A stretch of 25,997 bases of DNA from assembly GCA_934757275.1 (NCBI GenBank), contig CAKVLN010000018.1, forward strand, positions 1 through 25,997. The letters run 5' to 3'. Below, piece by piece: positions 949 through 19,566 of the stretch (position 1 is its first letter; every line of letters starts with the position of its first letter). The DNA is from an uncultured Candidatus Melainabacteria bacterium. GTDB taxonomy: Bacteria > Cyanobacteriota > Vampirovibrionia > Gastranaerophilales > Gastranaerophilaceae. The notes under the pieces are model-generated. The model ran no database searches. It saw only the letters and a program-made list of their open reading frames with translations, and was not told where the DNA came from. The translations under genes and the position numbers were made by a program.

Positions 949-1332
949 TTATTCAGCCATGCCCATCAATCTATCCATTACGATATCCATAACGGCTGGT
1001 GCTAATTCTTCGCCAAATTCTTCTTGAACAATTCCATAAATCATTTCAAATCGTTCCATATATCCAGCTACTCTATCTTGAGTTGCAGCATCTACTGCAC
1101 CCGCACCATCAACATCAGCTGCTTCTTTTGTAGTTTGAGGAGCTACAAAGTAATTATTGTTTGCTAGAAACGCCATAACCTTTGAAGGGTCAACTTGAGT
1201 TTCTGCAGGTTTATTATCTGCTACAGGAGCTTGTTGCTGATCATTCTTAGCAACTTCCTCCTTATTATTACGAGGTATGAAACCTCCGATACCATAACCA
1301 TATCCTGATAATCTTCCAATTCCGTCTGTCAT
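949..1332 (-). CDS. 127-aa protein, last gene of the phage-like cluster
   Basis: I do not recognise this protein. Residues 1-20 are rich in Gly and Tyr (SGYGYGIGGF), residues 20-50 are polar and probably disordered, and residues 85-127 look like acidic amphipathic helices ending in Met-rich sequence (MDIVMDRLMGMAE). No signal peptide or membrane segment is seen. The ATG is preceded by AAAGGAG at good spacing. It lies 174 bases downstream of the terminase gene on the same strand and is followed by a strong terminator. It is therefore either the last late gene of the phage-like cluster or an independent host gene with its own AT-rich promoter in 1333-1506. Confidence 0.75.
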   Translation of the reverse strand: MTDGIGRLSGYGYGIGGFIPRNNKEEVAKNDQQQAPVADNKPAETQVDPSKVMAFLANNNYFVAPQTTKEAADVDGAGAVDAATQDRVAGYMERFEMIYGIVQEEFGEELAPAVMDIVMDRLMGMAE

Positions 1333-1506
1333 TTTTCTACTCCTTTTATTTACTTTTCTTTACTCTATATATATCGGCACATTTTTCAAAAACTTTAGGC
1401 TTTTGGAAGATATTGTTACAATTCGTTACAAATTAAGCCAAAATCGCAGTCACCACCGCATTTTTAATTTCTGATTTAATATCACAAAATTCAAACAATT
1501 ATATTC

Positions 1507-2808
1507 CTAAACTCTTAAACGCCAATAATATTCAACAAGATAACTAATTGCATCAAAGGGGTGCTCTAGAAATTTGAAATCACGGTTTGATTTAATTTGA
1601 TTATGCGTTGGAACATCTACAATACTTGTTCCCTCTTTAAAAGATAAATTATATATATTATACAAAACCCATTTACATCTTCGAGGGTCGACAAACAAGT
1701 GGCGTTCACCCTTTGAATTTTTCACTCTCGCATTAAAAGCAGAAATTCGATTCATAATAGGAGGGTTATAATCTCTCAACCTAAACTTAACGTCCTTATA
1801 GCCATATTCCAAAAGCGATTTTTTAATTATTGCATAATTCGTGTACTCGCTCTGTGTACTTCTATTATCACCAGAGGCGTCACCATTAATTATTATAGCT
1901 GCTTTGTGGTCTGGATAACGTCTGATAAACTCATTTATACATTGCTGTGTGGAAGTATTTTCAATAACGATTTCATCAAAGAAATAAACGTTCTCATCAT
2001 CTTTATGCGCAATCGCCCAACACATAGGGTCGACGTTGAAATCACAAGTCAAGTGCAATGGCAAATTCTGATTATATTTTAGTTTAAGTTTATTCCCCTC
2101 ATCAAACCCTTTGACAACAAGTCCAGAAGAATAGTCGCCAAATTCACCAAGAACATTGATTTTGTAATATTCTTCATCAAAACTATCTTTCATTGATTGA
2201 ATAAAATGCGCTGGCAAATATATATTATTAGTAGTCGGTGCAATTATTAGTCTATAATTTTCCTTAGAATGTTCGACAAATCTTTGCCATATCCAGCCCT
2301 TATCTGCCTGTGGATTGGTATGCCCAAATAGTCTGTAACGAAAATCTACCCAGTTTTTGCCACGATAAGTATTTCTCAAACGTCCTATTAACTGTTTAAA
2401 CGAAGAATCTGTTATTTGCGAAGCTTCTTCGATTTCTGCCCAATGCAAGTTCAAAGACTTAAATCTTTCTGGGTCTTCTAGAGCCGAAAACAAGATTTCT
2501 GAACCATTTGAGAATTTTATCATCTTATCTATTTTATTATAGGTATAATCTTTATCTGGAACATAGCCAAAATTCTCAAGGTGGTCAAGATAAGACACTA
2601 GCGTGGTTTTGCGTACAAGTTCATATTCCTTAGCCCCAACCAAACCTCTTGAGCCTGGATATTTTTTTGCCAGTAAAATTCCCAAAAGCGAACCGCACCA
2701 AGTTTTTCCACTGCCATAACCACCTTGATAAATAGCCACATCAAGCGATTGCGAGTGCGGAATTTCAATAAACTCCTTTTGCTTATCCAACAATTTATAC
2801 TTAACCAT
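1507..2808 (-). CDS. Terminase large subunit (packaging ATPase/nuclease)
   Basis: This is the motor that pumps phage DNA into the procapsid and cuts it. In the N-terminal ATPase domain, Walker A is GGYGSGKT (residues 29-36), Walker B is LHWAEIEEA (121-129), and a GHTNP coupling-type motif lies at 162-166. In the C-terminal RNase H-fold nuclease, acidic residues appear in CDFNVDP (D256), GDASGDN (D310) and HPFDAISY (D419). At 433 aa it is normal family length with every key motif present, so the gene looks functional. The ATG directly follows the stop codon of the DUF1353 gene and has GGAGG upstream, indicating coupled translation. Its place at the end of the late genes, far from the portal, follows T7-like order rather than the lambda-like order with terminase first. 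Confidence 0.93.
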   Translation of the reverse strand: MVKYKLLDKQKEFIEIPHSQSLDVAIYQGGYGSGKTWCGSLLGILLAKKYPGSRGLVGAKEYELVRKTTLVSYLDHLENFGYVPDKDYTYNKIDKMIKFSNGSEILFSALEDPERFKSLNLHWAEIEEASQITDSSFKQLIGRLRNTYRGKNWVDFRYRLFGHTNPQADKGWIWQRFVEHSKENYRLIIAPTTNNIYLPAHFIQSMKDSFDEEYYKINVLGEFGDYSSGLVVKGFDEGNKLKLKYNQNLPLHLTCDFNVDPMCWAIAHKDDENVYFFDEIVIENTSTQQCINEFIRRYPDHKAAIIINGDASGDNRSTQSEYTNYAIIKKSLLEYGYKDVKFRLRDYNPPIMNRISAFNARVKNSKGERHLFVDPRRCKWVLYNIYNLSFKEGTSIVDVPTHNQIKSNRDFKFLEHPFDAISYLVEYYWRLRV

Positions 2809-3267
2809 CTAATTCCTCCACGAGCAAAATGTCTGAAATATATTTACAGAATGTTTCATAAAAAACCGCTTTATAACATTCACCTTGCTTGCTTCTAACA
2901 ACGCATTAAAAACTTTTGTCGAAAAGTTCTTATCATTGTTTACATAATTATGGTTTTCACACAAAACATCATGAATAAGTGCCGCTACTAAAAAGCGGTT
3001 ATCGGTATTTGAACCGATAACACGCCAGAATAATTTAGGAATAGAAGCCCCATCATAGCAATACCCTTTTGGAATTTCAAAATTGTACGTTTTTGATTTT
3101 TTATAATCAATCAAACAAACTTTTAAATTTGATTTATTAACAAAGGGGTATTTTTCGATTGATTTTCTTTCCTCCAGCTCCATCGTTGGAACAAAATATC
3201 TTATCCCAACTTGTGGAACATCACTAAACAACACCCCTACATCTTTATTTGAATACCATTTCTTCAA
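2809..3267 (-). CDS. DUF1353-family phage protein
   Basis: The 152-aa product carries the DUF1353 signature: PKGYCYDGASIPKLFW (residues 66-81) followed by an ALIHDVLC motif with His-Asp at 99-100. The family is common in phage late regions near lysis and terminase genes. Its biochemical role is unknown to me, although the conserved Asp/His residues suggest metal binding. The reading frame begins at TTG, one base after the TAA of the upstream gene. No ATG lies near, and a GAAAGG stretch sits somewhat far upstream, so start by termination-reinitiation is likely. An internal Met at residue 29 is an alternative start. Its stop abuts the terminase ATG. Confidence 0.8.
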   Translation of the reverse strand: MKKWYSNKDVGVLFSDVPQVGIRYFVPTMELEERKSIEKYPFVNKSNLKVCLIDYKKSKTYNFEIPKGYCYDGASIPKLFWRVIGSNTDNRFLVAALIHDVLCENHNYVNNDKNFSTKVFNALLEASKVNVIKRFFMKHSVNIFQTFCSWRN

Positions 3268-3268
3268 A

Positions 3269-3640
3269 TTAAATACCTATAACCTTTCGAGGATAAACAA
3301 TAATTAAATTTTTCTCCCCATAGCTACCCTTTTCTACTAATAAAGTGTCTTCTGTTTTTGTTTCAGCATCACACGCTTTTATGCCATAAGAAAACAGTGC
3401 ATACGCCTTTCCTTTCGGAACTTTTAATAAATCTGTAAAATCAGCTGTGAGTGCAAAAACAACAGTGTCACATTTATTGCTTGCAACCATTAATTCCTTC
3501 CCCACAAGATTTCCATTCTTATCTTGTATTGCAAAATACACTGAATAATTTTTGCTAGTATCCACACCCGACACAACGATTTCGCCGCTATCTCCTTGGT
3601 ACATTATAATTGTACCTTCTTCATTTATACTTAAACTCAT
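3269..3640 (-). CDS. 123-aa probable virion or baseplate-associated protein
   Basis: The sequence reads as all-beta (alternating hydrophobic strands, a YQGDSGEIVVSG turn near residues 14-25, few helices) and has neither signal peptide nor membrane segment. Small beta-sandwich proteins of this type are often accessory tail or head components, but I cannot name a family. The ATG has TAGGAG upstream, seven bases after the stop of the 32-aa ORF, and its own stop is one base before the TTG of the DUF1353 gene. It is thus inside a tightly packed translational series 4226 to 1507. Confidence 0.7.
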   Translation of the reverse strand: MSLSINEEGTIIMYQGDSGEIVVSGVDTSKNYSVYFAIQDKNGNLVGKELMVASNKCDTVVFALTADFTDLLKVPKGKAYALFSYGIKACDAETKTEDTLLVEKGSYGEKNLIIVYPRKVIGI

Positions 3641-3746: not shown

Positions 3747-4226
3747 TTAAACTCCAGTAAAATCACTAACTGTACGCATTAAACATTCTTTAACAAAATC
3801 ATTTGTTGCCAATTTCTTTTCCTGCAAACTCATCATATAAGCTTCATCTAGCTCTTTTGTAAAATCTGGCTCATTATAAGTAATTAGCTCGACCGTTTGC
3901 CCCAATTCTAGCCCAGCTTTTATTTGCAACAACAAATCTGACAGAAAATCTTTTTGCGAATTGTCCTTCATGCGTACTTTTCGCCTTATCCAGCCAAGAG
4001 AAGTCTGAAAAAACTCGCTATTAAAAACGTTTTCTCTTTCTTGTGCCAATTTTGCAGCATAATTTGTATCAACTTTTGGCTCGCCATTTTGCAAAATTTC
4101 GTTTTCCTCTAACGCATAAATAGCCTTCGCTGTTTCTTCAATTTTCAAGCCTTTTGTATGGTTGTATTCCACTATAAAATCTAGCTTTGCACCTTCTGTG
4201 CAAGGCTTTTCTAATTTGTATGACAT
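3747..4226 (-). CDS. 159-aa protein after the tail fibre, possible fibre chaperone
   Basis: A soluble, mainly helical protein. Residues 1-60 include an acidic KIEETAKAIYALEENEIL stretch. Residues 75-115 hold a segment (NVFNSEFFQTSLGWIRRKV) that recalls DUF4376-like C-terminal regions found beside tail-fibre genes, followed by SDLLLQIKAGLELGQ. The ATG is preceded by AAGGAG. It lies immediately downstream of the fibre gene, where fibre-assembly proteins or fibre-associated DUF4376 proteins commonly sit, so a fibre-assembly role is plausible but inferred from place and weak resemblance. Confidence 0.7.
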   Translation of the reverse strand: MSYKLEKPCTEGAKLDFIVEYNHTKGLKIEETAKAIYALEENEILQNGEPKVDTNYAAKLAQERENVFNSEFFQTSLGWIRRKVRMKDNSQKDFLSDLLLQIKAGLELGQTVELITYNEPDFTKELDEAYMMSLQEKKLATNDFVKECLMRTVSDFTGV

Positions 4227-4261: not shown

Positions 4262-4822
4262 TTAAACTCCGCAAGTGTACCAATAAGAATTACCAGCAGT
4301 AGCCGAGCTACCAGTATAACTTCTACTTAAAACAATAGTTGATACTGTTTTATAAGAAACAAACGGGTTTGACTCTACGCCGGCATTGTTACCTAAAAGC
4401 ACCGTAAAATTTGTATTAGAATATTCCTTCAACAATTTTACAGTTGTCGTTCCTGTCCTCATTGCAACTATTACTAAACCACCTTGCTCCAACCAAACCT
4501 TCTTTGTTTTTGCAGCATCAGAAAAATATTCACGATACCAAGAAGTACCACTTGTATAAGTTGTTATATACAAACCGTTTTTACTAGCAATATCGTTCAT
4601 TGCTGTTGTCAAGTCCGTTTTCATGTTTTCAAGCGACTTATTCATACTCTCGCCCAAATTTGAGATGGAAGAATTAGCCGTCGCAATATTTGTGTTAATA
4701 ATTGCAGTAGTAGACGACAAATTTTCTGATACGTCAGAAATTTTGTTATCTAAATATTGAAAATTGTTATTCATAACCTCAGACGAAGCAAGCGCTCCGT
4801 ACTCAATTTCAGTCAACGACAT
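4262..4822 (-). CDS. Tail fibre / receptor-binding protein
   Basis: Residues 10-85 are Ser/Thr/Asn-rich heptad-like sequence consistent with a trimeric coiled-coil shaft. Residues 90-186 form a beta-rich tip with many Thr, Gly and aromatic residues, ending in YWYTCGV. That ending resembles the W-x-x-x-G close of phage fibre tips of the gp53-like C-terminal type. At 186 aa it is short, as in compact short-tailed phages. Its start overlaps the previous gene by 14 bases, with GGAG just upstream. It would be expected to set host-surface specificity. Confidence 0.75.
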   Translation of the reverse strand: MSLTEIEYGALASSEVMNNNFQYLDNKISDVSENLSSTTAIINTNIATANSSISNLGESMNKSLENMKTDLTTAMNDIASKNGLYITTYTSGTSWYREYFSDAAKTKKVWLEQGGLVIVAMRTGTTTVKLLKEYSNTNFTVLLGNNAGVESNPFVSYKTVSTIVLSRSYTGSSATAGNSYWYTCGV

Positions 4823-5063
4823 CTTTACTCCTTTCGTTTATTAATGTGTCATAAATTTTGTCAACTTTTTTGTTTATATCCATAATTTGCTCTTTCATGT
4901 TTCCAAACTCTGATTTTGTAATATAAACCTGCGAGACCTCGCTCAAAATTTCTCGATGAGTTTGTTCTAATTTTTCAGGAGTCACAAACAAGTTGTACTG
5001 AAAAATAAGCGCAACGCAAACAATAAATGCTGGCGCATATTTATAAATGTATTCCTTTTCCAT
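4809..5063 (-). CDS. 84-aa membrane-anchored coiled-coil protein, holin-like candidate
   Basis: One hydrophobic segment (about residues 9-27, APAFIVCVALIFQYNLFV) is followed by a charged coiled-coil tail with heptads (MKEQIMDINKKVDKIYDTL). I chose the ATG at 5063 because it lies just after the stop of the upstream gene; a start 19 codons further upstream would overlap that gene by 50 bases. Single-span proteins with a cytoplasmic coiled coil next to fibre and terminase genes are often holins or XhlA-like lysis accessories, and in T7 the holin lies between fibre and terminase genes. The role is inferred. Confidence 0.7.
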   Translation of the reverse strand: MEKEYIYKYAPAFIVCVALIFQYNLFVTPEKLEQTHREILSEVSQVYITKSEFGNMKEQIMDINKKVDKIYDTLINERSKDVVD

Positions 5064-5070
5064 TCTTAAA

Positions 5071-5691
5071 CTAAACCGCCTTTCCAGCTGCTGAAACGAC
5101 CGCTGATAGAACATTTGCAAGCTGGCTTAATAGCAAGGAATTATCTTTTGTTGTAGAAGTGCTTTGATTTGTAGCATTACCTTTACTTGTACTCAAAGAT
5201 TGTTTCTGCATATCAGATATCAAATTGTACCCATTTTGGTACTGATTCATAAGATTGTTCAAAACATTGCCAGTTTGATTTTGTGATTCAGCGAGTAAAT
5301 TATTTGCAAAATCAGCAAGCGCATTTGTATTTGTATTAGATAGATTTTTGTACAAATCTGTTGCTTGCGATGAACGCACCATATTTCTATTAGAAAGCGG
5401 ATTGATAATGTTGTTTTCTAAATTTGCTTTCGTTTGAGTGTTCATAGTATTTACAAAAGAATTTAATTTCGCTTGATTAGTAGTCGAATTTAAACTTGGG
5501 TTTAAATATTCGTTCAAAAGAGAATCGATATTCTTGTTCACAAATTTGTAAATACTATTAAGAGCCGTTCCATCATTAAAAGAGGAAACAGTGCCTGAAT
5601 TTGTTGTAGTTGACGTTGCATACGGATTAGAAGTTGTTGTTTTTCCGTATGTAGTAGAACTAGTTCTTGTTGTAGTAGATTTTTTTCCCAT
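5071..5691 (-). CDS. 206-aa Thr/Asn/Ser-rich virion-associated protein
   Basis: The N-terminal 35 residues are almost entirely Thr, Ser, Tyr and Gly (repeated TTT/TST blocks). Residues 45-150 are Asn/Leu-rich amphipathic helices, and the C-terminus is a short hydrophobic Ala/Val segment (LSQLANVLSAVVSAAGKAV). This composition is seen in phage internal or ejection proteins and in tail-needle-like proteins, but I cannot assign a family. The ATG has AAAGGAG upstream. It stands at the tail side of the nozzle gene, where T7 encodes its internal core proteins; no large core proteins occur here, so this may be the only ejection protein. Confidence 0.7.
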   Translation of the reverse strand: MGKKSTTTRTSSTTYGKTTTSNPYATSTTTNSGTVSSFNDGTALNSIYKFVNKNIDSLLNEYLNPSLNSTTNQAKLNSFVNTMNTQTKANLENNIINPLSNRNMVRSSQATDLYKNLSNTNTNALADFANNLLAESQNQTGNVLNNLMNQYQNGYNLISDMQKQSLSTSKGNATNQSTSTTKDNSLLLSQLANVLSAVVSAAGKAV

Positions 5692-5836: not shown

Positions 5837-6229
5837 ATGCAAAATCCAATCAAAATCGCATACAACTTTATAAAAAATCTTAAACAATACCACGCAGTAC
5901 ACGTTTGTATTTGGCCTACTTTTTTATATTTTTTATTTCTTTGTTGGTTTTTTTATTCTCCATCAAAAAATCACTGTAACGAAGTACCTGAATATTACTT
6001 TGGACTTTGCCTTCTTGCCCTCTTCACATTAGCTATCACATTATTTTCCACATTAGGTGCAATTGTTTTAGAGGCTATAATTTTAATAATACAATTTTTT
6101 ATTCACAAAAAGATTGTAATCAGATGGAATTTCATTATTAATAATATTCTCTTTAATTTTGTATTTTTTATGGCAGTAGTGGTTTATATAATTGCATTAA
6201 TCATGTTAATTTATCTTGCCTTTAATTAG
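5837..6229 (+). CDS. 130-aa integral membrane protein, opposite-strand insertion
   Basis: Three or four hydrophobic spans are visible: about residues 22-42 (aromatic-rich), 54-90 (long enough for two spans) and 100-128. A lysine-rich cytoplasmic start and a short HKK loop near 90 separate them. No known family is recognised. It is the only gene in 949-8037 on the plus strand and separates the nozzle gene region from the T/N-rich gene, so it is probably cargo with its own promoter. Its 3' end overlaps the tail of the broken gene at 6206-6489 by 24 bases. A superinfection-exclusion or immunity role would fit a membrane cargo gene but is not shown. Confidence 0.65.
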   Translation: MQNPIKIAYNFIKNLKQYHAVHVCIWPTFLYFLFLCWFFYSPSKNHCNEVPEYYFGLCLLALFTLAITLFSTLGAIVLEAIILIIQFFIHKKIVIRWNFIINNILFNFVFFMAVVVYIIALIMLIYLAFN

Positions 6230-6495: not shown

Positions 6496-8037
6496 TTACC
6501 TCTTAACCTTAATTTTGCCAAACTCTATACTTCTTATACAAAAATCATCACCTTTATTTTTTGTCAAAAACGTCATTTGCAAAGTTTTAAAGAAAGAGGT
6601 TGGTAATTTTTTAATAGAATTTATATCTTTATCTGCAAAATACGCATTATCCCAATGCCCGATATCAAAGTAAAGCGAGTTTTCTAGCGTTCTTGATTTG
6701 ATATAACGAGTTTTTGAAGTTATTGAATCATAATTTTTGACATACTCGACATAAAAACTATTTTGGTAATACATATCCAATGAAACCTTTGGAGGATATG
6801 CCAAAATCTTTAGAGTGTCTTCAAAACCAAAATTCAAAGGCGCACATTTGTAATAAGAAGGAATAAACTCGCCATCAAAAGTTTTTGACTGGTATTCTTC
6901 GTAAATCTTCTTACCACCAGAATACAAAACGCCATCAATTGTCGCAAAACAGTTGATTTTTTGCGACTTTCTTTTTACCCAACTTCTTCTCAAATAATCG
7001 TATATAACTATCGTTGAATATTTTTTGTCCTTTGTCGGAAGTAAAAACCAAACCTCGTTTTTTTCAGCCGTCAAAACTGACAATGTTCTAATACTGTTGA
7101 GTTGTGATTTTGGAACTTCAAATAGCTCTTCTTGTATATCGACTGCAATATTTTCACCGAGCGTTTTATTGCCGTTTACGACCTGTTGAAAACTAAATAC
7201 GCCCTTTTTGGTATTGTCATAAAAATACAATTCCGTTCCATGAAAGACCAACGAATTATATGAGGCACAACCTCCAGGGGAGTCGAATGTTTTATAGAAA
7301 ATATGCTTGTCATCATCTGTTGCAATTAAAGAAGAAGAGTTGCTGTGAAAAACCGCTAACGTACCCAAATAAGGACAAATTGCAGTAATATTTTTTACAA
7401 ACTCTATGTACCCAGCAGACGTAGAAATTTCTGCATCAGAGGTAGAAAAATCGTAAATATCCTCTTGTACCGAATACCACACAACTTGCTGGTTAAAAAT
7501 CCACAATCGTCCAGCATAAATAGCCAAGCCCAAACCCTTAACCTCTCTACCGTCAGCATCTTTCGGTGACATTTTTACAACTTCGTCTAATTCATTTTCT
7601 CCATTTAAGTTGCCAATTTCAATAGACAACAAATCTTCAGAATTAGAAAACACCCACAAGTCTGACCAACCTTGCGCTACATCAGTTGCACAAGATACAC
7701 CAGTAACCTTCAACCCACTAACCTTTTCGGTCAATGTGTCATCAATTCTGGAATAAAGATAAATTTTCCCTTCTGAATTATTTTCGGTATGCACAAAAAA
7801 GTAAGTTTTGCTCTTTTGCACACTTTCAAATATATTTATGACATTTTCATCTTCTGGAATAAGATTACAAACTGCAACATTACCTTTTGCTGTTCTAATT
7901 CCAATACCTGAATTATTCTCAGTTGCAAAAAGTTCTACATTCTGCACATCTGATGCCGTAATTAGCGCAGATGAAAAAGTAGACGCATTGCGTTTTATAC
8001 CAGAGAAATTATTACAAATTAATTCAGTTTTTTGCAT
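6496..8037 (-). CDS. Tail nozzle / stabilisation protein of a short-tailed phage
   Basis: The 513-aa product is made of repeated beta-strand pairs with aromatic-rich blade-like segments (LWVFSNSEDLLSIEIG near 130, LAIYAGRLWIFNQQVVWYS near 172-190, ELYFYDNTKKGVFSFQQV near 275). This is consistent with the beta-propeller of T7 gp12-type nozzles and P22 gp10-type stabilisation proteins. Its position after the adaptor and before the fibre gives the same call. The ATG is preceded by GAAAGGAG. Assignment rests on length, predicted fold and gene order, since the family has little sequence conservation. The 1.7-kb gap to the adaptor gene holds repeats and two plus-strand cargo genes. Confidence 0.75.
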   Translation of the reverse strand: MQKTELICNNFSGIKRNASTFSSALITASDVQNVELFATENNSGIGIRTAKGNVAVCNLIPEDENVINIFESVQKSKTYFFVHTENNSEGKIYLYSRIDDTLTEKVSGLKVTGVSCATDVAQGWSDLWVFSNSEDLLSIEIGNLNGENELDEVVKMSPKDADGREVKGLGLAIYAGRLWIFNQQVVWYSVQEDIYDFSTSDAEISTSAGYIEFVKNITAICPYLGTLAVFHSNSSSLIATDDDKHIFYKTFDSPGGCASYNSLVFHGTELYFYDNTKKGVFSFQQVVNGNKTLGENIAVDIQEELFEVPKSQLNSIRTLSVLTAEKNEVWFLLPTKDKKYSTIVIYDYLRRSWVKRKSQKINCFATIDGVLYSGGKKIYEEYQSKTFDGEFIPSYYKCAPLNFGFEDTLKILAYPPKVSLDMYYQNSFYVEYVKNYDSITSKTRYIKSRTLENSLYFDIGHWDNAYFADKDINSIKKLPTSFFKTLQMTFLTKNKGDDFCIRSIEFGKIKVKR

Positions 8038-8095
8038 GATACTCCTTTCGTTTTTTGGGGAATTGTGAGCAGTGATTTTTTTTGAGGGGGCGGAA

Positions 8096-8138
8096 AGTCA
8101 ATAAGTGAATAGGTGAATGAGTGAATAAGTTCGTATTA
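8096..8138 (+). repeat. Octamer-array arm (GTGAATAA family)
   Basis: Degenerate tandem 8-mers (AATAAGTG, AATAGGTG, AATGAGTG, AATAAGTT) end in CGTATTA. This is the same arm that forms the ends of the elements at 18239, 18744 and 19001. Here it stands alone just upstream of the nozzle gene. Confidence 0.7.
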
Positions 8139-8220
8139 AAATTTTTGATGTGATTAGCGTTCATAATTATAATAGAGCGTGTTGGACAATTGTAAGCCAA
8201 TACGAGATTTTTATAATAAT

Positions 8221-8455: not shown

Positions 8456-8477
8456 CCATGTCCATTTGGTCTAAAAC

Positions 8478-8537
8478 GGTGGGAACGCACTCCACGTTCT
8501 TTGTGATTTATCAGCGTTTTTAGTCGCTTTTCCCACC
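8478..8537 (+). repeat. GGTGGGAA palindrome, long-loop copy
   Basis: GGTGGGAA (8478-8485) and TTCCCACC (8530-8537) enclose a 44-base loop. It is followed by CTACGTTTTTT, a terminator-like T-run on the plus strand. It is related to the short-loop copy at 771-798. Confidence 0.5.
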
Positions 8538-11591: not shown

Positions 11592-12488
11592 TTAACCTAA
11601 TGCTAATTGTGCTTTTACTTTCACCGTACCTAAATAATCTGCACGAGGCGCACCTACACCATACAAACCATAACCTTTGTAACAAGTATTGAAATTCTTT
11701 TCTGGAGTGTACGCAGTTGTATTTAGGTTTGCAGAAATTCCGCCAGCAAGAGTTTTGTCTTTCACACCAAACAATGGATAGAAAATACCTTCTTCTGGTT
11801 GAGCAATGTTGTTTGAAACAAGAATTTCCCAACCGCAAAGAGTGCCGATATAACCCTTTTTAGCCTCTTCTTTACCAGTTTCTGTATATTTGTAATCATC
11901 TAGCTTGCCTAAATAGAATTGATATTCTGGAGGAATTACACAAACCATAGAGCCATCAAGCCAGTTTGTATGACCTTTTCCATCACCACGTTGGAATTTT
12001 GCTTGCATAAATGCAAAAATATCCTTTGCTATTTGAGGAGTCAAAGTAATTGCCTCACCAGCATTATCCAAATAATGACCAGCTCTTGTATAAAGATTTG
12101 CGTAAGAAGCATCGACTGCTGCTGCAAATTGCTTGATAGCATCATTTGTATAATCTTTTGCTAGTCCAACTTGTGCGTCGGAGTCCCCTGCTGAAGCTTG
12201 AATCATTTTTTCTTCCATTTCTGACAACTCAAAATGAAACGCTTTACCTCTATCAATTTTTACTTTGCAAGTAGAAAGTGTTGCAGCTTCCGCAGTCGGC
12301 AAATCTCCGCCATCATAATCAAATAAAGTTACCAAACCAGGCATTGTCACATCAACTTCGTCACCTTTGTTGATGTTGTTTTTCAATTCTGAATGAGCAA
12401 GTTTTCCAACTACAAGCTCATTGTAAAAATGTTTGTTAAATGCTTGCGTAAAAGCAGATACGATAAGTTGCTTTGTTGTATCAGCCAT
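11592..12488 (-). CDS. Major capsid protein
   Basis: The 298-aa product lies between scaffold and decoration genes, the standard place for the coat gene. Its parts fit an HK97-fold coat of podovirus type. The N-arm helix is followed by a VDVTMPGLVTLFDYDGGDLP strand region (residues 45-65), and then the spine-helix region (MEEKMIQASAGDSDAQ). The P-domain strands (SMVCVIPPEYQFYLG) and a GWEILVSNNI strand are also present, and the C-terminus reads GVGAPRADYLGTVKVKAQLALG. It begins MADTTKQLIVSAFTQAFNKH. Strong AGAAAGGAAAATT ribosome site. This is the most abundant expected product of the cluster. Confidence 0.88.
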   Translation of the reverse strand: MADTTKQLIVSAFTQAFNKHFYNELVVGKLAHSELKNNINKGDEVDVTMPGLVTLFDYDGGDLPTAEAATLSTCKVKIDRGKAFHFELSEMEEKMIQASAGDSDAQVGLAKDYTNDAIKQFAAAVDASYANLYTRAGHYLDNAGEAITLTPQIAKDIFAFMQAKFQRGDGKGHTNWLDGSMVCVIPPEYQFYLGKLDDYKYTETGKEEAKKGYIGTLCGWEILVSNNIAQPEEGIFYPLFGVKDKTLAGGISANLNTTAYTPEKNFNTCYKGYGLYGVGAPRADYLGTVKVKAQLALG

Positions 12489-12538: not shown

Positions 12539-13174
12539 TTAAATCAATCTTTTTAACAATTCGTCTAATTCTGTTTGTGTCATCTCATCTATTCTTTTTT
12601 TAGGAGGAGTAATTGAAGAAACTTCATTTTTAGAAAAATTCATTGCATCAATAGCAGAACGATTTTCTTTTTCTACGGCTTTAGATTTTTCTATTGCCAA
12701 AATTCTTGATGCAACATAATCTTCAATAAGCGTCACAAAACGGTCACTATCTAAGTTCTCGCCTAATGCTAGATACGCTTCTTTGTAGATTTCTCTAAAA
12801 GACGGATCTTGAAAGTATTGTGGCGAATTGTACTTTTGTGCTACTTGCTTTAAGTTTTCCTGCGCTTTTTCGATTTGTTGCTGTTTTTCCCAAGCTTTGT
12901 TCACATCTTCTGAAAGCAAGGCTTTTTGCCTAAGCAAACCTAGCTCTTCTGATTGAGTTCCTTGAAATTTTTCTAATTCCTTGTAAGCTTTGGTAAGCTC
13001 TTCTACTGATTTGAACTTTCCTAAAATAAGACTAGAAGGGGCTGGAGTAGCAGAGTCTTGCTTAACCTCTGTATTAGCTTGTCCTTCTATTTGTTCTGTA
13101 GTTTTGGTTGTATTAGAGTTTTCAGAAACTTTATCTGGCTCATTTACAACACTGTTTTCTTGAATTTCTTCCAT
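12539..13174 (-). CDS. Capsid scaffolding protein
   Basis: The 211-aa, Glu/Gln/Lys-rich and largely helical product lies between portal and capsid genes. Residues 1-45 are disordered and Thr/Glu/Ser-rich; residues 50-130 form a long helix (FKSVEELTKAYKELEKFQG... LRQKALLSEDV); the C-terminus carries a basic helix after KKRIDEMTQTELDELLKRLI. Scaffolds have little sequence conservation but this composition and position are diagnostic. It would shape procapsid assembly and leave before DNA packaging. GAAAGGAAA precedes the ATG. Confidence 0.85.
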   Translation of the reverse strand: MEEIQENSVVNEPDKVSENSNTTKTTEQIEGQANTEVKQDSATPAPSSLILGKFKSVEELTKAYKELEKFQGTQSEELGLLRQKALLSEDVNKAWEKQQQIEKAQENLKQVAQKYNSPQYFQDPSFREIYKEAYLALGENLDSDRFVTLIEDYVASRILAIEKSKAVEKENRSAIDAMNFSKNEVSSITPPKKRIDEMTQTELDELLKRLI

Positions 13175-13465: not shown

Positions 13466-15199
13466 CTATTCACCTTGAGTAATTGGCAAACTTTCTACAC
13501 TTCCTAAAAATCGTTCTGGGCTATCCACGCCTTTTTGCTCAAAATACCAGACAAAAATTTCCTGCAAATTCAAAGGTATCAAGGACGCAAATTTTTCTAT
13601 CGCTTGAATTACAATGTCAGCTTGCTCTGATTTTTGCGTTGTCATAGAGGAATCGGCATACATGTATTTGTAATCACCTTGACGCACCGCATCATCAATT
13701 TCTATAACTTCTTGCTTGTTTTCATGATTTACAAACACAGTTTCTACGCCTGATTTAAAATCAGCACATAACTTTGCCACCTTCTCCACATTTGGAATAA
13801 TCAAATCTTGATTAATTGTATCAACAATCATTGCAAGTCGTATCATTTGTCCTTGCGTTTTTGTATTAATTTCGGTTGCTGTTTTTGCACCGCTTGTCTC
13901 AACCGCACCAATCATATTAGGGAAAATGCCCGACACTTCTGCCATCAAATCGTTTAAAAAACTTATATCCTGCAAGAAGATATTTGAATTAAAAGTTAAT
14001 TGTTGAAAAGCTCCTGTAGGCGACAAATTATCACCATATTCAATAATTTTCCCTGGGTAAAGATTAATTTCATCTTCATCAAAAAAGCCTTCTGGTGCTA
14101 ATAGAGGAGGATTTTCGTTAAGAGTTTGCAAGTTGCAGGTACGATTCATTAATTCTTCTTGCAGGTGTGCTAATGATAAGATTGAATATAAAGGGCTTAT
14201 TCCACGCTTTGTTTCTGGGTCTGTAATAAATGCACCGTAAGAAAATGGATTAATCAAACTTTCGTTTTTCTCAAATAGTGCTAAGTATTTTCTTGCGACA
14301 ACTACCGCATGCCAGTTCTTCAAAATCGTTCCGTCTGGCATTTTTAAATCACCCCAATGCTCTAAAACTTCTATAGTAGAACCGTTTACAATATCTTTAG
14401 TCAAAGAATTTTGACTAGAACGTGTAGGTATGTTTAATATTGCATTTTTCGCCTCATCTGAAAATTTGTAATACTTATTGTTGACAATTTCTGATGGAGT
14501 TTTGTACGTTCTATATATTTTAGGACAAGAATCCCAATTTTCTTTTTGCGAATTATCAAAAACCAAGTCTGCTGGGTTTACGGGATAAATAAACGGATTA
14601 TCATATATTTTTCTTGTATCCACCCAGTAGTTTTTGCCTTTTGCTATTGCGTCCATAATTTGAGGCAACTTGCTTAAATCTTGCGAAAAGATATTTTTGA
14701 AAAAATCAATTGGGCGTCGATATTCTTCGTAGTTCTTTTTCCACGCTGTAAAAGATATCAATTCACCATAAAGTAAGGCATTATCAATAATTTGATCACA
14801 GATTTGGGAGTAATCCATTTTTTCAAGAATGTCAACAAGCATCGCTTTTTGCTTGTTTGAAGCGTTGTTTGAGTCGTGATTTTCACCTGACACATCGAAC
14901 ATAGAATTAACATTCGCATAAGTATTTCTCCAGATAAAAGCTTTTAGAGTTTGGTAAAACATAAAAGTTTTGCACATTTTAATCTTTGTTTTCCATTTTT
15001 GATTTTTGTCAGTTAGTGACTTAAAATCGTTCTTGAAAAAAATCTCATTGGCAAGCTTTGATGCCATTTCGAGATTTGTACTTCGCTCTTGATTAAGCGA
15101 AGTAAATTTTGAGGAAATTTTCTTGATTAATTGTTCCTCCTGCTCTTTTGTAAGCTTTTTAACGCTTTCTTCTTGATTAACAATGTATTCAAACGACAT
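13466..15199 (-). CDS. Portal (head-tail connector) protein
   Basis: The 577-aa product has the size of short-tailed-phage portals (T7 gp8 is about 536 aa). It heads the series portal, scaffold, coat. Features consistent with the family are a helical N-terminus, NPFIYPVNPADLVFDNS-like clip/stem-region strands near 200, a LAHLQEELMNRTCNLQ helix (about 355-375), and GAVETSGAKTATEINTKTQG near 430-450, a 'TAtEi' motif common in podovirus portals. I set the start at the ATG at 15199, preceded by AAAGGAAA. The portal ring is the DNA gate and packaging-motor dock. Upstream of it come repeat and GNAT-remnant sequences rather than a terminase. Confidence 0.85.
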   Translation of the reverse strand: MSFEYIVNQEESVKKLTKEQEEQLIKKISSKFTSLNQERSTNLEMASKLANEIFFKNDFKSLTDKNQKWKTKIKMCKTFMFYQTLKAFIWRNTYANVNSMFDVSGENHDSNNASNKQKAMLVDILEKMDYSQICDQIIDNALLYGELISFTAWKKNYEEYRRPIDFFKNIFSQDLSKLPQIMDAIAKGKNYWVDTRKIYDNPFIYPVNPADLVFDNSQKENWDSCPKIYRTYKTPSEIVNNKYYKFSDEAKNAILNIPTRSSQNSLTKDIVNGSTIEVLEHWGDLKMPDGTILKNWHAVVVARKYLALFEKNESLINPFSYGAFITDPETKRGISPLYSILSLAHLQEELMNRTCNLQTLNENPPLLAPEGFFDEDEINLYPGKIIEYGDNLSPTGAFQQLTFNSNIFLQDISFLNDLMAEVSGIFPNMIGAVETSGAKTATEINTKTQGQMIRLAMIVDTINQDLIIPNVEKVAKLCADFKSGVETVFVNHENKQEVIEIDDAVRQGDYKYMYADSSMTTQKSEQADIVIQAIEKFASLIPLNLQEIFVWYFEQKGVDSPERFLGSVESLPITQGE

Positions 15200-15284
15200 A
15201 TTTTTCCTTTCTGAGTGCAATACTCCTAACAATTTGTTGTGCTGACTATCTATCTACCAACAAACATATCCTCAAACACAGTAG

Positions 15285-15315
15285 GTCGTATTCAACAATT
15301 GTCATTGAACGCGAC
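15285..15315. repeat. 31-base palindrome, copy 1
   Basis: Arms GTCGTATTCAA and TTGAACGCGAC (imperfect) with a nine-base loop. It lies at the 3' side of the truncated GNAT copy and overlaps its last codons. Confidence 0.6.
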
Positions 15316-15631
15316 AATAACTTTCACCTCTATACACAAATTCTTTCCCTCCAACCCACTCAAACCCGCATTTTCTCAAACACAACGCCGACATTTTATT
15401 CTGCGCAACGGCATAAATTTCACAATTAAACCACTTTAACGACATTTTTAAACATTTCAAATTCAATAAATGTTTTTTTCGTTTCGCAAAACCATTCAAA
15501 TACAATTTGTCATTTTCATCTACAAAATAATAAATTGCACCAATCAACTCTTCTTCGTCCAAAAACAAATAAAAAAATGTGTAGTTGACTATAAACTCAA
15601 ACGAATTTGTGTCACAAATCGATTTTTGAAG
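15302..15631 (-). pseudogene. 5'-truncated copy of the GNAT-like gene
   Basis: This matches the gene at 17829-18212 at about nine bases in ten, from its SICDTNSFEF segment to the C-terminus. It lacks the first 35 or so codons: homology stops near 15630 and a stop codon lies directly upstream in frame. Its C-terminus also differs, ending FVYRGESYCRVQ instead of FVYKG. No ATG remains at the 5' end. The fragment is bracketed by inverted copies of a 31-base palindrome (15285-15315 and 15637-15667). It is probably non-functional, unless a TTG at 15566-15568 is used. Confidence 0.7.
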
Positions 15632-15754: not shown

Positions 15755-15776
15755 AAATATATTGAGGTTGGTGAAA

Positions 15777-17753
15777 ATGATTAACAATAAAAAAGATGCG
15801 AAATACTACTGCGAAGAAGGTGTTAAAAGGTATAAAAAAGGTTCAAAATCAGCATTAAAATCTTTACAAAAAGCGCTTGAACTTGCTCTAAACGACCCAG
15901 CAACACAAAATGAACTTTTAAATGATATTTATGGTGATTTATTTTGTTATTATGACAAACTTTCTCCTGATTACTCCAAGGCTTTGATTTATTTTGACAA
16001 ACTTATTGATACAAATATTGATGATGAAGAACTTGAAAAAGCAAAAGAATTTCGCGCAGAAATTAAAGCCAATCCTGACAAATTTGATAAAACAACTTTA
16101 TTAAAACGTGCTAATCAAATTCGCGTTATGAATGAAGTTGATGCAGATGGCATTTTGTTATATATAAAATGTCTGATTTTATTTGATAATCCAAATTGTG
16201 ATGAAATTTTCTATATCGCGGCTCAACATTATAAATCATATGTCAATTCTGCAGCCGAAAGAAATATCAAACAAGCAATTGCCATAAATCCTAATAAACA
16301 GGAATATTATGACCTGTATTTTAGTATAATGTTGCAAATTTTGGCTGATGAGTATGGTGAAAAAACTTTCTCTAAAACCGTTAAAAAATACGACAAAACA
16401 ATAAAAGATACTATTAACAAATCAATCAAAATAAAACCGACAGCCCAAGCTTATCTCAACTATTATTACTATTACAATCTTTTGAGAGATTTCAAATCAG
16501 CCCTAAAAGCTCTTGATAAAGCAATTGAGCTTGACCCTGAAAATGCTTTTATGTATGAATATCGCGCACAATTAAAAAGTGAAAACAAAGATATAGATGG
16601 CGCAATAAAAGACTGGGAAAGCGCACTTGCAATTTACCCGTATGAAGAAAATAATTATGTCGAAATTGGAAATTTGTACTATGAAAAATATGGCAAAGAA
16701 AAAGTCTATGAGTATTTAGAAGAAAAAATCTCTCAATTTGCCTCTGAAAAAGAATTATATATGTATCTTTTAGTAAATAAAGCAAATTTTGAAAAAGAAT
16801 ATGGCGATTATGACCTATGTCTTTCAGATTGTGATAGAGTAACCAATTTTGCCCAATTTATTCCGAATGAGAAATATAATATCGACGCAATCAAAGCAAT
16901 ATGTTTATGGCAAAAAGGTGATTTTGAAAATGCCCTCAAATCAATAGATTCTGCAATTGAACTTGAACCAAATTGTGCACAAAAATATATGGATAAAGGT
17001 ATAATTTTAAAAGAACAAAAGAGATATGAAGAGGCAATTAACTGTTTAAAAAAAGCAGAAGAAATTTCACTAAAAGGAGACGGTTATATTTTGGAGTATT
17101 TGTACACCGACATAGGCTATTGCTATGAATGCTTAAATAAACAGTTTGAAGCTATAAAATATTACAACAAAGCAATTAAAAAAAGGCTTGATTCTTGGTA
17201 TCCATACCTAAATAAGATTGGTAATTTAATCCGTTTAGGGAAATATAATCTTGCACTGAAATGGACAGAAAAAGCAGAGAAAACATTCAAAAATGAACTA
17301 GACAATAGGTTTTATGGCAACAAAGGGTTAATTTATTATCATTTGAAAGATTACAAAACCGCTGTAAAAAATTTCAAAAAATATCCGCAATGGGATTCTG
17401 CGAAAATTTTGACGGCTTATATTGATTTCTTGCAAGGGAATAGTAAGTCTGCCTTGAAAAAGTTAGAAAAGTTAAAAACAACAACACCTGCGGAAAGTGA
17501 TTACAAACTTCGTTTCATGGCGGTCGTTTATTATAAAAATCAAAAATATGACAAAGCTTTAGAATGCCTTATTCCAACAAAAGATAAAAATTGTTTTTAT
17601 TATTATATAAAATCATGCATATTCAATAAACTTGGTGATAATGTAAACGCAGAAGAAAACATGAATTTGGCAAAATCAACCTTGGAAGAAAATGAAACTA
17701 TAGAAAATATGATAAAAATTATTGAAGACGATTTCCACGTAAATTTTAACTAA
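15777..17753 (+). CDS. Tetratricopeptide-repeat (TPR) protein
   Basis: The 658-aa, Lys/Glu-rich soluble protein is made almost wholly of paired helices. Clear TPR units include the regions near residues 23-36, 240-275 (AIELDPENAFMYEYRAQL), 380-415 (AIELEPNCAQKYMDKG), 415-430, 455-470, 488-502 and 520-535. There is no signal peptide, membrane segment or appended catalytic domain, so it is a cytoplasmic protein-protein scaffold. I chose the ATG with GAGGTTGGTG before it rather than an upstream TTG. It has its own promoter, runs against the phage genes, and sits between two copies of a GNAT-like gene. It is therefore likely cargo or a host gene caught in a duplication. Its partner is unknown. 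Confidence 0.85.
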   Translation: MINNKKDAKYYCEEGVKRYKKGSKSALKSLQKALELALNDPATQNELLNDIYGDLFCYYDKLSPDYSKALIYFDKLIDTNIDDEELEKAKEFRAEIKANPDKFDKTTLLKRANQIRVMNEVDADGILLYIKCLILFDNPNCDEIFYIAAQHYKSYVNSAAERNIKQAIAINPNKQEYYDLYFSIMLQILADEYGEKTFSKTVKKYDKTIKDTINKSIKIKPTAQAYLNYYYYYNLLRDFKSALKALDKAIELDPENAFMYEYRAQLKSENKDIDGAIKDWESALAIYPYEENNYVEIGNLYYEKYGKEKVYEYLEEKISQFASEKELYMYLLVNKANFEKEYGDYDLCLSDCDRVTNFAQFIPNEKYNIDAIKAICLWQKGDFENALKSIDSAIELEPNCAQKYMDKGIILKEQKRYEEAINCLKKAEEISLKGDGYILEYLYTDIGYCYECLNKQFEAIKYYNKAIKKRLDSWYPYLNKIGNLIRLGKYNLALKWTEKAEKTFKNELDNRFYGNKGLIYYHLKDYKTAVKNFKKYPQWDSAKILTAYIDFLQGNSKSALKKLEKLKTTTPAESDYKLRFMAVVYYKNQKYDKALECLIPTKDKNCFYYYIKSCIFNKLGDNVNAEENMNLAKSTLEENETIENMIKIIEDDFHVNFN

Positions 17754-17820: not shown

Positions 17821-17828
17821 AAATACTT

Positions 17829-18212
17829 TCACCCTTTATACACAAATTCTTTCCCACCAACCCACTCAAATCCACATTTTCTCAAACACAACGCCGACAT
17901 TTTATTCTGTGCAACGGCATGAATATTCCCTTTGAACCACTTTAACGACATTTTTAAACATTCCAGATTCAACAAATGCTTTTTACGTTTCGCAAAACCA
18001 TTCAAATACAATTTGTCATTTTCATCTACAAAATAATAAATTGCACCAATCAACTCTTCTTCGTCCAAAAACAAATAAAAAAATGTGTTATTGACTATAA
18101 ACTCAAACGAATTTGTATCACAAATAGATTTTTGTACTTTTTCATACAAACTTTTACACTCTTGAATATAACTATGGAACTCTTTTTGCGTTGGAATTAA
18201 TACTTTAATCAT
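17829..18212 (-). CDS. GNAT-fold acetyltransferase-like protein
   Basis: The 127-aa product has a GNAT-like course: an N-terminal helix region (QKEFHSYIQECKSLYEKVQ), the strand FLDEEELIGAIYYFVDENDKLYL (residues 48-72), and a C-terminal AQNKMSALCLRKCGFEWVG segment. The latter resembles the 'N..A..LY.K.GF' close of GNATs. No obvious Q/RxxGxG/A acetyl-CoA loop is visible, so activity is uncertain. The ATG has only a weak GAG upstream. GNAT-like proteins occur in phage late regions, and this one lies on the same strand as the particle genes. A truncated second copy lies at 15302-15631 beyond the TPR gene. Confidence 0.65.
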   Translation of the reverse strand: MIKVLIPTQKEFHSYIQECKSLYEKVQKSICDTNSFEFIVNNTFFYLFLDEEELIGAIYYFVDENDKLYLNGFAKRKKHLLNLECLKMSLKWFKGNIHAVAQNKMSALCLRKCGFEWVGGKEFVYKG

Positions 18213-18238
18213 GGTTAATACTCATTGTTTTTGTGGGT

Positions 18239-18404
18239 GTGAATACGTGAATGAGTGAATAGGTGAATAAGTTCATATAAATATTCTTCTTCATAAAACT
18301 TGTTTTTCTTTGAATATAATAATTTTCAAATTTCTTCTTCTATAAATCATGAGCGAAGCGAATAAAATGAACTTATTCACTTATTCACCTATTCACTTAT
18401 TGAC
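18239..18404. repeat. Octamer-armed element A
   Basis: The left arm GTGAATAC/GTGAATGA/GTGAATAG/GTGAATAA ends in GTTCATA. The right arm is its inverse (GAACTTATTCAC-TTATTCACC-TATTCAC...). The core has ATTCTTCTTCATAAAACTTG and ATCATGAGCGAAGCGAAT, shared with elements B and C. It fills the whole gap between two genes and ends at the stop codon of the next. Confidence 0.75.
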
Positions 18405-18704
18405 CTATATTCTCCCTTCACACAACCCTTCCACCACATTAATTTTCGGCTCTTCATTCTCAACAACCTCGTCATCTAAACCCAATGCCAGCCGTTGACC
18501 TTTTTGAACTTTGCCTATTGCCGAAATCAAAAAATCAATCATTGATAGAGAATTTTTGGGAACGTCAAGAAACTCAAATTCTGCATATTTTATTTCTCTT
18601 GCGTACTCCTCAAGCATAAATTCTAAAACGCTTAACGCTTTATCATAAAACTCAATATGCTTTTGATTGACTTTTTGCTTAATATTTTCAACCTTCTTTG
18701 ACAT
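18405..18704 (-). CDS. 99-aa phage-type protein of unknown function
   Basis: A helical protein. Residues 1-45 form an amphipathic helix (KQKVNQKHIEFYDKALSVLE), followed by FLDVPKNSLSMIDFLISAIGKVQKGQRLALGLD (residues 45-77) and an acidic tail. The 'K.Q.GQR.ALGLD' stretch reminds me of DNA-packaging or small-terminase-like phage proteins, and no other small terminase is evident, but this is weak. The ATG follows AAAAGG. It is bounded on both sides by octamer-armed repeats, and its last codons lie at the repeat edge. Confidence 0.65.
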   Translation of the reverse strand: MSKKVENIKQKVNQKHIEFYDKALSVLEFMLEEYAREIKYAEFEFLDVPKNSLSMIDFLISAIGKVQKGQRLALGLDDEVVENEEPKINVVEGLCEGRI

Positions 18705-18743
18705 AATATACCTTTTCTTGTGGTTTTAATAAATTGGATTTTA

Positions 18744-18890
18744 AAGTGAATAAGTTCGTATTAGTTATTATTCTTCATAAAACTTGCTTTTATATGAACA
18801 TAATAACCTTCAAATCTTTTCATCTTTGAATTATGAGCGAAGCGAATTTAATGAACTTATTCACCTATTCACTTATTGACTTATTGACTT
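18744..18890. repeat. Octamer-armed element B
   Basis: It has a short left arm (AAGTGAATAAGTTCGTATTA), a core with TATTCTTCATAAAACTTG and ATTATGAGCGAAGCGAAT, and a right arm of four inverted units (GAACTTATTCACC... ). The arm lengths differ from element A, showing copy-number change of the 8-base unit. Confidence 0.75.
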
Positions 18891-18907
18891 AACAATAAAA
18901 AAAAACA

Positions 18908-18982
18908 CTGAGGGCAGGGGCAACGTATACTGTACACAAGGAGTGTGTCACGAGAGAGAAAGGTGAAACAATAAGCCCTCAG
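18908..18982 (-). ncRNA. Candidate structured RNA with terminator-like end
   Basis: CTGAGGGC (18908-18915) and GCCCTCAG (18975-18982) close a 59-base interior containing GTATAC and an imperfect TGTACAC/GTGTGTCA hairpin. Read on the minus strand, the last arm is followed by TG and a run of nine T, as at the end of a small RNA or long-loop terminator. It lies alone between two octamer elements. The base composition is much more GC-rich than its surroundings. Confidence 0.35.
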
Positions 18983-19000
18983 AGAGATAAAACTTTTTGA

Positions 19001-19198
19001 AAGTGAATAAGTGACAGAGTGAATAGGTGAATAAGTTCGTATTAGAAATTATTCTTCATAACACATGTTTTACATTGAATTTATAAAAAACAACTTTCAA
19101 CTCTTGCATTTTACAATATCATGAGCGAAGCGAATAAAATGAACTTATTCACTTATTCACTCTGTCACTCATTCACCCTGTCCCCCATTCACTTATTA
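19001..19198. repeat. Octamer-armed element C
   Basis: This is the largest copy. A variant unit GTGACAGA in the left arm is matched by TCTGTCAC in the right arm, so the arms stay complementary. The core again has ATTCTTCATAA and ATCATGAGCGAAGCGAATAAAATGAAC. The right end supplies the last codons of the gene at 19189-19566. Confidence 0.75.
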
Positions 19199-19566
19199 AC
19201 TTTTCTAACCAATTCCTTATTCCCATAAAAATCACAAGCAAATTGCTTAACCACCTCTTTTTTACCTGATTTTACAGATTTATTTAAACCATATTTCCAC
19301 CCAAAAGGTTTTGACTTAAATTTGGCATAGTTAAACTCACGCAATGAATAAACGATTTGCATTCTATGCTTTTGAGCCAACTCATTAGCCTTAATACCAA
19401 CCTCTTTTGTAATTTTATAATTCCCGTCAAAACGCCATTCCGCTAACTCGCTAACAGGCTTTTTACAAATTGGGCAAAAACCTATTGAAAGTTTCCTTGA
19501 GGAATATAATTCGTTTTCTTCCAGATAATAAACGTCATCAGGACGAAATTGACAACAATGTCGCAC
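19189..19566 (-). CDS. 125-aa protein with a zinc-ribbon-like Cys pair
   Basis: The protein has HCC near the N-terminus and CPICKKPV at about residues 31-38, together a possible zinc site. A basic, aromatic C-terminal half follows (SLREFNYAKFKSKPFGWKYG... ). I do not recognise a family; DNA or RNA binding is plausible. The start is GTG, with GGAGG seven bases upstream and a minus-strand TATAAT at 19588-19593, so it has its own promoter region. It is the most upstream gene on the strand of the particle genes and could be the right end of the phage-like region. Its last codons lie inside octamer element C. Confidence 0.7.
   Translation of the reverse strand: MRHCCQFRPDDVYYLEENELYSSRKLSIGFCPICKKPVSELAEWRFDGNYKITKEVGIKANELAQKHRMQIVYSLREFNYAKFKSKPFGWKYGLNKSVKSGKKEVVKQFACDFYGNKELVRKVNK

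Follow-up and report, generated by a model that had tools for sequence, protein, structure and literature searches.

What does a bacterial chromosome keep when it keeps the particle genes of a phage: the remains of a prophage, or a device of its own? The question is raised by a locus on contig CAKVLN010000018.1 (assembly GCA_934757275.1) of an uncultured Candidatus Melainabacteria bacterium of the family Gastranaerophilaceae, in the order Gastranaerophilales, whose members are non-photosynthetic relatives of the cyanobacteria living in the gut. The window, that is, the whole stretch of 25,997 nucleotides that was analysed, carries on its minus strand, from 19566 to 1507, the gene set of a short-tailed phage particle with intact frames in a T7/P22-like order, hereafter the module. 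A preliminary description of this DNA had offered two readings, a decayed prophage and a domesticated particle-forming cluster such as a short-tailed gene transfer agent (GTA). It is the second that we uphold, because of conserved synteny, co-diversification with the host, the lack of propagation genes and the loss of the DNA-binding domain of the small terminase (TerS). We consider it very likely that the module is a domesticated particle locus maintained by the host, and probable that it is a vertically inherited, host-kept, podovirus-type, GTA-like particle locus. For the transfer of host DNA by the particle, taken by itself, the balance tips modestly in favour.

Relatives of the module were collected by a pattern scan for the large terminase (TerL), from which the best 80 of 190 in species genomes and the best 80 of 102 in a viral collection were used. 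Among the species genomes, those bearing taxon labels were mostly Candidatus Gastranaerophilales, Melainabacteria or Cyanobacteria, and two were labelled Acinetobacter. Type Ia (capsid 78% or more) denotes the kind found in the window, type Ic (capsid about 65–70%) the outer type I loci, type Ib (TerL about 68–73%) a prophage form, and type II a different, compact cluster. The preliminary description had proposed searching related genomes for the module at the same chromosomal position, and this position proved constant in type Ia. An MDR dehydrogenase gene lay directly upstream of g23, the first module gene, and/or of TerS in all 30 type Ia genomes whose contig reached that far, as it does in the window. 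These were 12 genomes, with the match in G006 lying at the stretch's edge, and 18 of 20 further genomes, the contigs of the other two ending earlier. In G368, which carries a type Ia locus, TerS was present and no g23 match was found.

The module has also diversified with its hosts. RpoB was usable in 22 of the 26 genomes of type I and in 22 of the 23 of type II, and RpoB distances were correlated with those of the module proteins. In type I the Spearman coefficients were 0.75 for TerL (22 genomes), 0.85 for the portal (18), 0.85 for the capsid (20) and 0.88 for the nozzle (20); in type II they were 0.85–0.89 (21–22 genomes), and with the types pooled 0.66–0.70. The type I hosts formed one clade in the RpoB tree (support 99/93), nested within the type II hosts, and the main groups were the same in the TerL tree, which was poorly resolved inside type Ia. 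In an enlarged RpoB tree, for which 29 further genomes were searched, 25 matched and 24 used, type I was still one clade (100/98). Mostly vertical inheritance with host co-diversification belongs to the description of GTAs in PMC9662315, and it was found here with G010 and the places of type Ic as exceptions.

All tested module genes were under purifying selection. The ratio of nonsynonymous to synonymous substitution rates (dN/dS) was calculated only for pairs with 0.1 < dS < 1.5, and G010 was left out. The type I medians were 0.023 for TerL (10 pairs), 0.032 for the portal (9), 0.064 for the capsid (76), 0.143 for the nozzle (14) and 0.279 for TerS (11), with 0.046 for the host MDR gene (5). 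Over 15 genes they lay between 0.02 and 0.28, no pair exceeded 0.5, and TerL had the lowest median of the genes tested. In type II the values were 0.028 for TerL, 0.058 for the portal, 0.099 for the capsid and 0.301 for the scaffold-like gene, and three pairs exceeded 0.5 (one for TerS, two for the regulator). The preliminary description had suggested this calculation for terminase, portal and capsid and had named relaxed selection across all genes among the results that would speak against its interpretation; relaxed selection was not found. Among the 150 TerL matches listed, an internal stop occurred in one of 62 frames at 75% identity or more, in three of 15 at 64–73%, the band that holds the prophages, and in none of 73 at 56–59%.

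Type Ib prophages, which occur in the same bacteria as the module, served as a control. Two of them, G005 C6 and G010, are complete and temperate, with tyrosine recombinase, SSB-like and repressor-like genes, with genes that we take to be DnaB-, RecT- and YqaJ-like, and with two large internal proteins beside homologous virion genes. The names DnaB, RecT and YqaJ, like tsf, rpsB and dxr below, were assigned by reading the sequences, without a family search. Portal, capsid, adaptor, nozzle, TerL, TerS and g23 of these two prophages are homologous to those of the module and stand in the same order, which G004 C8 shows in part. Unlike the module, G005 C6 and G010 carry propagation genes and the two internal proteins, and in all three TerS is full-length; for G004 C8 an integrase was not seen. 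The propagation genes and internal proteins were each found in 2–9 of 15 type Ib stretches, the majority of which extend over the TerL side only. Across 50 stretches of types Ia and Ic, the window among them, no homologue of DnaB, SSB, RecT, YqaJ, the repressor or the two internal proteins was present, and the 26 type II stretches yielded a single partial match, to one of the internal proteins. The window itself gave no match to the Ib integrase or to the DnaB-, SSB-, RecT-, YqaJ- or repressor-like proteins; only its scaffold and GNAT-like proteins matched the type Ib protein set. The integrase, repressor and replication genes by which a temperate prophage is recognised thus have no match in the window, in line with the preliminary description, which had found none in the module. 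PMC9662315 describes the GTA genome as fully endogenised, a description that the module fits with its fixed MDR neighbour in 30 of 30 genomes and the lack of replication homologues in the 50 stretches.

TerS (18405–18704, minus strand) was overlooked in the gene list of the preliminary description. The protein of 99 amino acids aligns to the C-terminal part of the 167-amino-acid prophage TerS. It has a weak match to the small terminase family phrog_6299 (positions 78–155 of 193, E 0.009) and one to phrog_23746 (a family without assigned function, E 9.5e-6), which together with its position and the alignment suggest that this gene is TerS. The part missing from it corresponds to the N-terminal DNA-binding domain. 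One of two prophage TerS proteins matched phrog_867, annotated as a DNA binding domain, over residues 4–113 (E 5.9e-7); for the other, the best match stood at E 0.047, and Pfam recognised no helix-turn-helix in the two prophage proteins tried. In a survey of 81 stretches (10 without TerS, one with TerS cut by the contig edge), the N-terminal part was absent from 46 of 49 distinct complete-frame TerS and present in three, all of type Ib. The domain is therefore lost in types Ia and Ic and not in Ib, and short and long TerS open frames coexist in G004, G005, G272 and G368. A corresponding loss in type II found no support: Terminase_2 was kept, and seven of eight viral-contig relatives had TerS of equal length (142–145 amino acids), one of these seven being seen in two pieces. 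The TerS of RcGTA starts with a coiled-coil and has no helix-turn-helix domain (PMC6854486), and that of FpGTA is described without any obvious DNA-binding domain (PMC12946183). A TerS of the kind that the former source associates with GTAs, without an N-terminal DNA-binding domain, is what the 46 copies show.

If the module works as a GTA, it would be induced in some cells, in which heads would assemble around the portal. TerL, together with a TerS unable to read a pac site, would fill them with mostly random host DNA. Lysis proteins would then release the particles, the nozzle and the variable fibres would select and enter kin cells, and the short tail would deliver the DNA. In armed relatives, discussed below, a tag may in addition load cargo proteins. 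PMC9662315 further characterises GTAs by mostly random packaging of host DNA, by a head too small to take up the whole of their own genome and by DNA delivery to other cells; on the first of these the TerS domain loss bears indirectly.

Several findings weigh against the GTA-like reading. We infer both the particles and the packaged host DNA from genes, no regulator was assigned in type I, and active prophages are likewise under purifying selection. The seven type Ic genomes showed no MDR gene in the fetched stretches. Three pairs of them (G002/G372, G009/G207 and G106/G096) have flanks of their own in common, G310 being not judgeable, and type Ic thus sits at other places, so that the locus was either moved or acquired more than once. 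In G010, whose host is nested in the type I clade, the only module found is the prophage form, and in places the type I TerL tree departs from the RpoB tree or has poor resolution. No TerL match was obtained in 153 of 383 genomes of the order. Fifteen of these were placed in the RpoB tree, coming from the first 20 listed of the 153 and not from a random draw; 11 fell in a deep separate group that also contains two type II genomes, and the remaining four lay inside the main group. Finally, the integrase gave four weak matches in the 50 type I stretches, three at a distance of about 9–12 kb, of which two span just 39 residues, and the fourth, in G113, 1.9 kb past TerL.

Many type I genomes hold extra genes between TerS and the portal gene, between the portal and scaffold genes, and after g15. 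We picked 19 same-strand cargo proteins by two motifs that were defined after viewing the sequences: one is a tag resembling YTRxDGTxVxxYxR, the other an N-terminal pattern. At the 3ʹ end of 17 of the 19 genes, a convergent open reading frame on the opposite strand lay within 400 bases, overlapping or at most 8 bases away in 15, and the partner had a predicted membrane segment in 16 of the 19. The corresponding counts for convergent frames and for those with a membrane segment were 25 and 15 of 194 other non-core same-strand open reading frames, and again 25 and 15 of 181 core genes. Pfam searches with 10 cargo proteins found papain-fold toxin 1 in two, Lipase_3 in three, DUF6973 in one, a domain of the serum amyloid A family in one and nothing meaningful in three. 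The tag occurred in 13 of 25 type I genomes (982 kb of sequence) and was absent from 26 type II stretches (505 kb) and 15 type Ib stretches (280 kb). The window contains no tagged protein. It keeps one orphan gene for a membrane protein of the g09 family (5837–6229, plus strand; 24–44% identity to members in relatives, no Pfam match), a family that supplies convergent cargo partners in the relatives and that we infer to be immunity-like. The tags, toxin-like Pfam domains and convergent partners of these relatives, with motifs chosen post hoc and an untagged window, make them candidates for a polymorphic toxin system and suggest that type I relatives with tagged cargo may have armed particles whose cargo would be toxic. 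Two loci deserve mention in their own right: in L207 (13341–14012) the cargo protein inside the bacterial particle locus strongly matches serum amyloid A (PF00277, E 3.7e-26), and in L381 (G141; 12.8–19.3 kb) small membrane proteins stand in a row on the opposite strand, surrounding genes for tagged cargo in a manner reminiscent of an immunity-gene array.

How far do these observations carry? That the armed relatives would kill non-kin with the particle is a tentative idea. Equally tentative is the fuller picture of a kin-discriminating armed GTA that would carry random host DNA together with exchangeable, tag-loaded toxins while siblings that make no particles are shielded by opposite-strand immunity genes. 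One could go further and make the delivery of antibacterial cargo to non-kin the main task of a short-tailed, bacteriocin-like device, with DNA packaging secondary. The convergent partners with predicted membrane segments, in excess of both control sets, speak for this, as do the papain-fold toxin 1, Lipase_3 and DUF6973 domains and a tag confined to type I. Against it, the median dN/dS of TerL is the lowest among the genes tested, a value that speaks for continued DNA packaging; a tagged protein is lacking in the window and in 12 of the 25 type I genomes, the motifs were chosen with the sequences in view, and toxicity and particle loading are putative. We therefore regard a mainly antibacterial role as unlikely.

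An ordinary temperate prophage family, with its integrase and replication genes elsewhere or recently lost, would account for the complete type Ib relatives G005 C6 and G010, which have TerL, portal, capsid and nozzle in common with the module, and for the location of type Ic away from that of Ia. It fares badly against the fixed type Ia locus, the congruence with host phylogeny, a TerS domain loss that spares Ib, and the lack of prophage replication-gene homologues in the 50 type I stretches. The decayed prophage of the preliminary description finds no support either, since the frames are intact, the tested genes are under purifying selection and the locus is kept in every testable type Ia relative; we consider a prophage of either sort improbable. 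The coexistence of Ia and Ib-like copies in G004, G005, G190, G272 and G368 might instead recall a phage satellite or helper-dependent cargo element that replicates via type Ib prophages. Known satellites carry their own integrase and redirect packaging without encoding a full virion set, which the module, unlike them, does, and it is present as a single copy in most genomes with a TerL match; a satellite is accordingly extremely unlikely. The GTA-like reading is thus the one that we retain.

Read from the MDR side, the module genes follow one another on the minus strand. It opens with g23 (19189–19566, by synteny), TerS, g21 (17829–18212, conserved, by synteny) and the portal (13466–15232; phrog_332, E 4e-36; PF23899, E 2.3e-10). 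The next gene is scaffold-like (12539–13174) by its position and a weak homologue (24%) at the equivalent position of a related prophage, without a family match. Then come the major capsid (11592–12488; phrog_267, E 8.5e-16), the conserved head-region protein g15 (11187–11576; phrog_24894, a family without assigned function, E 2.5e-6), whose role in decoration, named in the preliminary description, is putative, the small conserved g14 (10915–11115; homologues in 8 of 160 terminase loci), a lysozyme/transglycosylase-like protein (10436–10918; phrog_27932, E 2e-17, no Pfam match) and the head-tail adaptor (9764–10423; phrog_6013, E 2e-7; SU10_adaptor at E 2.6e-4, below the Pfam cut-off). The beta-rich tail nozzle (6496–8037) had no family match, and a sequence search against solved structures gave nothing useful. 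Its AlphaFold model (mean pLDDT 81) resembled the nozzles of Pa223, Pan3 and P22 gp10 in Foldseek (E 1.5e-17 to 2e-13), best that of Pa223, and that of T7 more weakly. The conserved g08 follows (5071–5691; 55 of 160 loci), for which an internal virion role is a guess.

On the TerL side the series continues with a small membrane protein found in types I and II (4809–5120), holin-like by position and matching the lipoprotein family phrog_462 (E 9.3e-6), and with a fibre-like protein (4262–4822), so assigned by position and homologues in 74 of 160 loci, without a Pfam match; relatives have big, variable fibre-like proteins in this region. The conserved g05 (3747–4226; 41 of 160 loci), g04 adjoining the fibre (3269–3640; 67 of 160), a DUF1353 protein of the PHROG tail assembly chaperone family (2809–3267; PF07087, phrog_1158) and TerL (1507–2808; PF04466, E 8.5e-20; phrog_2) complete it. 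L008 (9266–13220), the contig of a temperate phage whose integrase-like gene lies close to TerL, has TerL (83%), DUF1353 and the holin-like gene in common with the module, but its fibres are different. The preliminary description had named portal, capsid, adaptor, nozzle, transglycosylase and terminase in T7-like order, all of which the PHROG and Pfam matches and the nozzle fold confirm, and its scaffold and fibre agree with position and homologues. PMC9662315 gives particle-forming proteins derived from Caudoviricetes as a mark of GTAs; their predicted counterparts are recognised here by the homology of TerL, portal, capsid and adaptor and by the nozzle fold.

Besides the g09-family gene, two plus-strand genes lie inside the module. 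One encodes a conserved protein of 95 amino acids between adaptor and nozzle (8933–9220; 18 of 160 loci), of which a homologue stands away from the module in one type II genome. The other encodes a TPR protein (15762–17753; TPR Pfam families) between g21 and a partial g21 copy (15302–15568, minus strand). A 300-bp direct repeat (15316–15615 and 17822–18121, 92%) carries the g21 piece and brackets the TPR gene, which therefore came in with the duplication. Inverted copies of 227 bp, 92% alike, at 8209–8435 and 23955–24181 look like a host interspersed repeat, and arrays of 8-base units (ACTTATTC/CACCTATT-like) on both strands, at 8076–8790 and 18230–19200, flank module genes. Sixteen of the 80 genome loci have sequence only from 105–236 bp ahead of the nozzle gene, at the place where the window carries the region of the 227-bp repeat. 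A split locus, considered because contigs break just upstream of the nozzle, was ruled out by other contigs that hold one continuous locus.

Beyond g23, the window continues with the MDR dehydrogenase gene (19568–20749, plus strand; PF08240, PF00107) and rpmH (about 20858–20998, plus strand, found by motif), the right-hand host genes already recognised in the preliminary description. The left edge had been described as holding terminators and an rRNA-type promoter. Three terminator-like stems were found where 0.8 were expected, while nine promoter-like sites (6.0 expected; the best, 11/12, at 305–278 on the minus strand) are not above chance, and no Rfam family matched there. Most of the extent originally given (949–19566) stands as well, except 949–1332, for which none of the 160 terminase loci contains a homologue and which is probably outside the module. 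On the TerL side of other loci, genes presumed to be tsf and rpsB were seen in 12 and 11 of 80 genome loci, respectively; other clades differ, and several loci are too short. Both flanks are visible in G003, G006 and G008, and also in G166, judging from its contig reach. The 1.5 kb on this side of the window contain none of the tsf/rpsB-type neighbours, and the gene at 23140–23868, which has homologues near TerL in 14 other loci (one cluster of 12), lies on the opposite side of the module in the window, so that the surroundings have been rearranged locally.

Across the order, 206 of 383 genomes gave a match to the capsid query, seven of them more than one. The TerL family, prophage relatives and weak matches included, was found in 230 of 383 at E 1e-20, as a single match in 209. 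Sister lineages carry type II, a second short-tailed cluster of about 9.5 kb that is common across the order and syntenic within clades. We examined it in 23 genomes (G029 among them) that had a capsid match and, in most cases, were selected for their long contigs. All 23 had the amidase, nozzle, capsid, scaffold-like protein, adaptor, TerS, portal and TerL genes, 20 a holin-like gene, and 18 a LuxR-type regulator, which often leads the cluster. Among the flanking families, F12 lay downstream in 15 genomes, F13 and F14 upstream in 12 each, and F19 (presumably dxr-like) with F21 upstream in five. If these loci are GTAs, the spread of the terminase and the two host-tracking cluster types would place them among the wider GTA-like systems. 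With domesticated copies and sister copies that are still temperate side by side in these bacteria, the way in which a phage turns into an organ of its host, TerS domain loss included, can be studied as a natural experiment, and toxin-immunity-like cargo in such a locus would tie gene transfer to kin recognition.

Among open-licence papers, we found none combining "gene transfer agent" with "Gastranaerophil", and the listings searched for Melainabacteria and Vampirovibrionia showed no report of such a system. The nearest phage records by portal are the cyanobacterial podoviruses Anabaena A-4L and Phormidium Pf-WMP4, with only 19–22% portal identity; these are independent phages of about 40–45 kb. 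Two known GTAs invite comparison: RcGTA of Rhodobacter capsulatus, which is long-tailed, and FpGTA of Faecalibacterium, whose host belongs to Bacillota. The module forms one locus of about 18 kb beside the MDR gene; its relatives carry variable cargo, and the sister lineages have another type of cluster. FpGTA is instead split between operons of 10.5 and 5.5 kb, and its particles have been demonstrated experimentally (PMC12946183). RcGTA resembles the module in a TerS without a helix-turn-helix and in vertical inheritance with its hosts; its packaging of host DNA has been demonstrated, whereas for the short-tailed module such packaging is predicted (PMC6854486 and PMC9662315 for RcGTA). The cargo of the relatives is reminiscent of the MuF polymorphic toxins of temperate phages, in which, according to PMC5576092, toxin domains in phage genes stand beside small putative immunity genes. 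It differs from them in having mostly other tags and N-terminal parts (with one weak Phage_Mu_F match, E 0.021), partners on the opposite strand and a carrier that looks domesticated.

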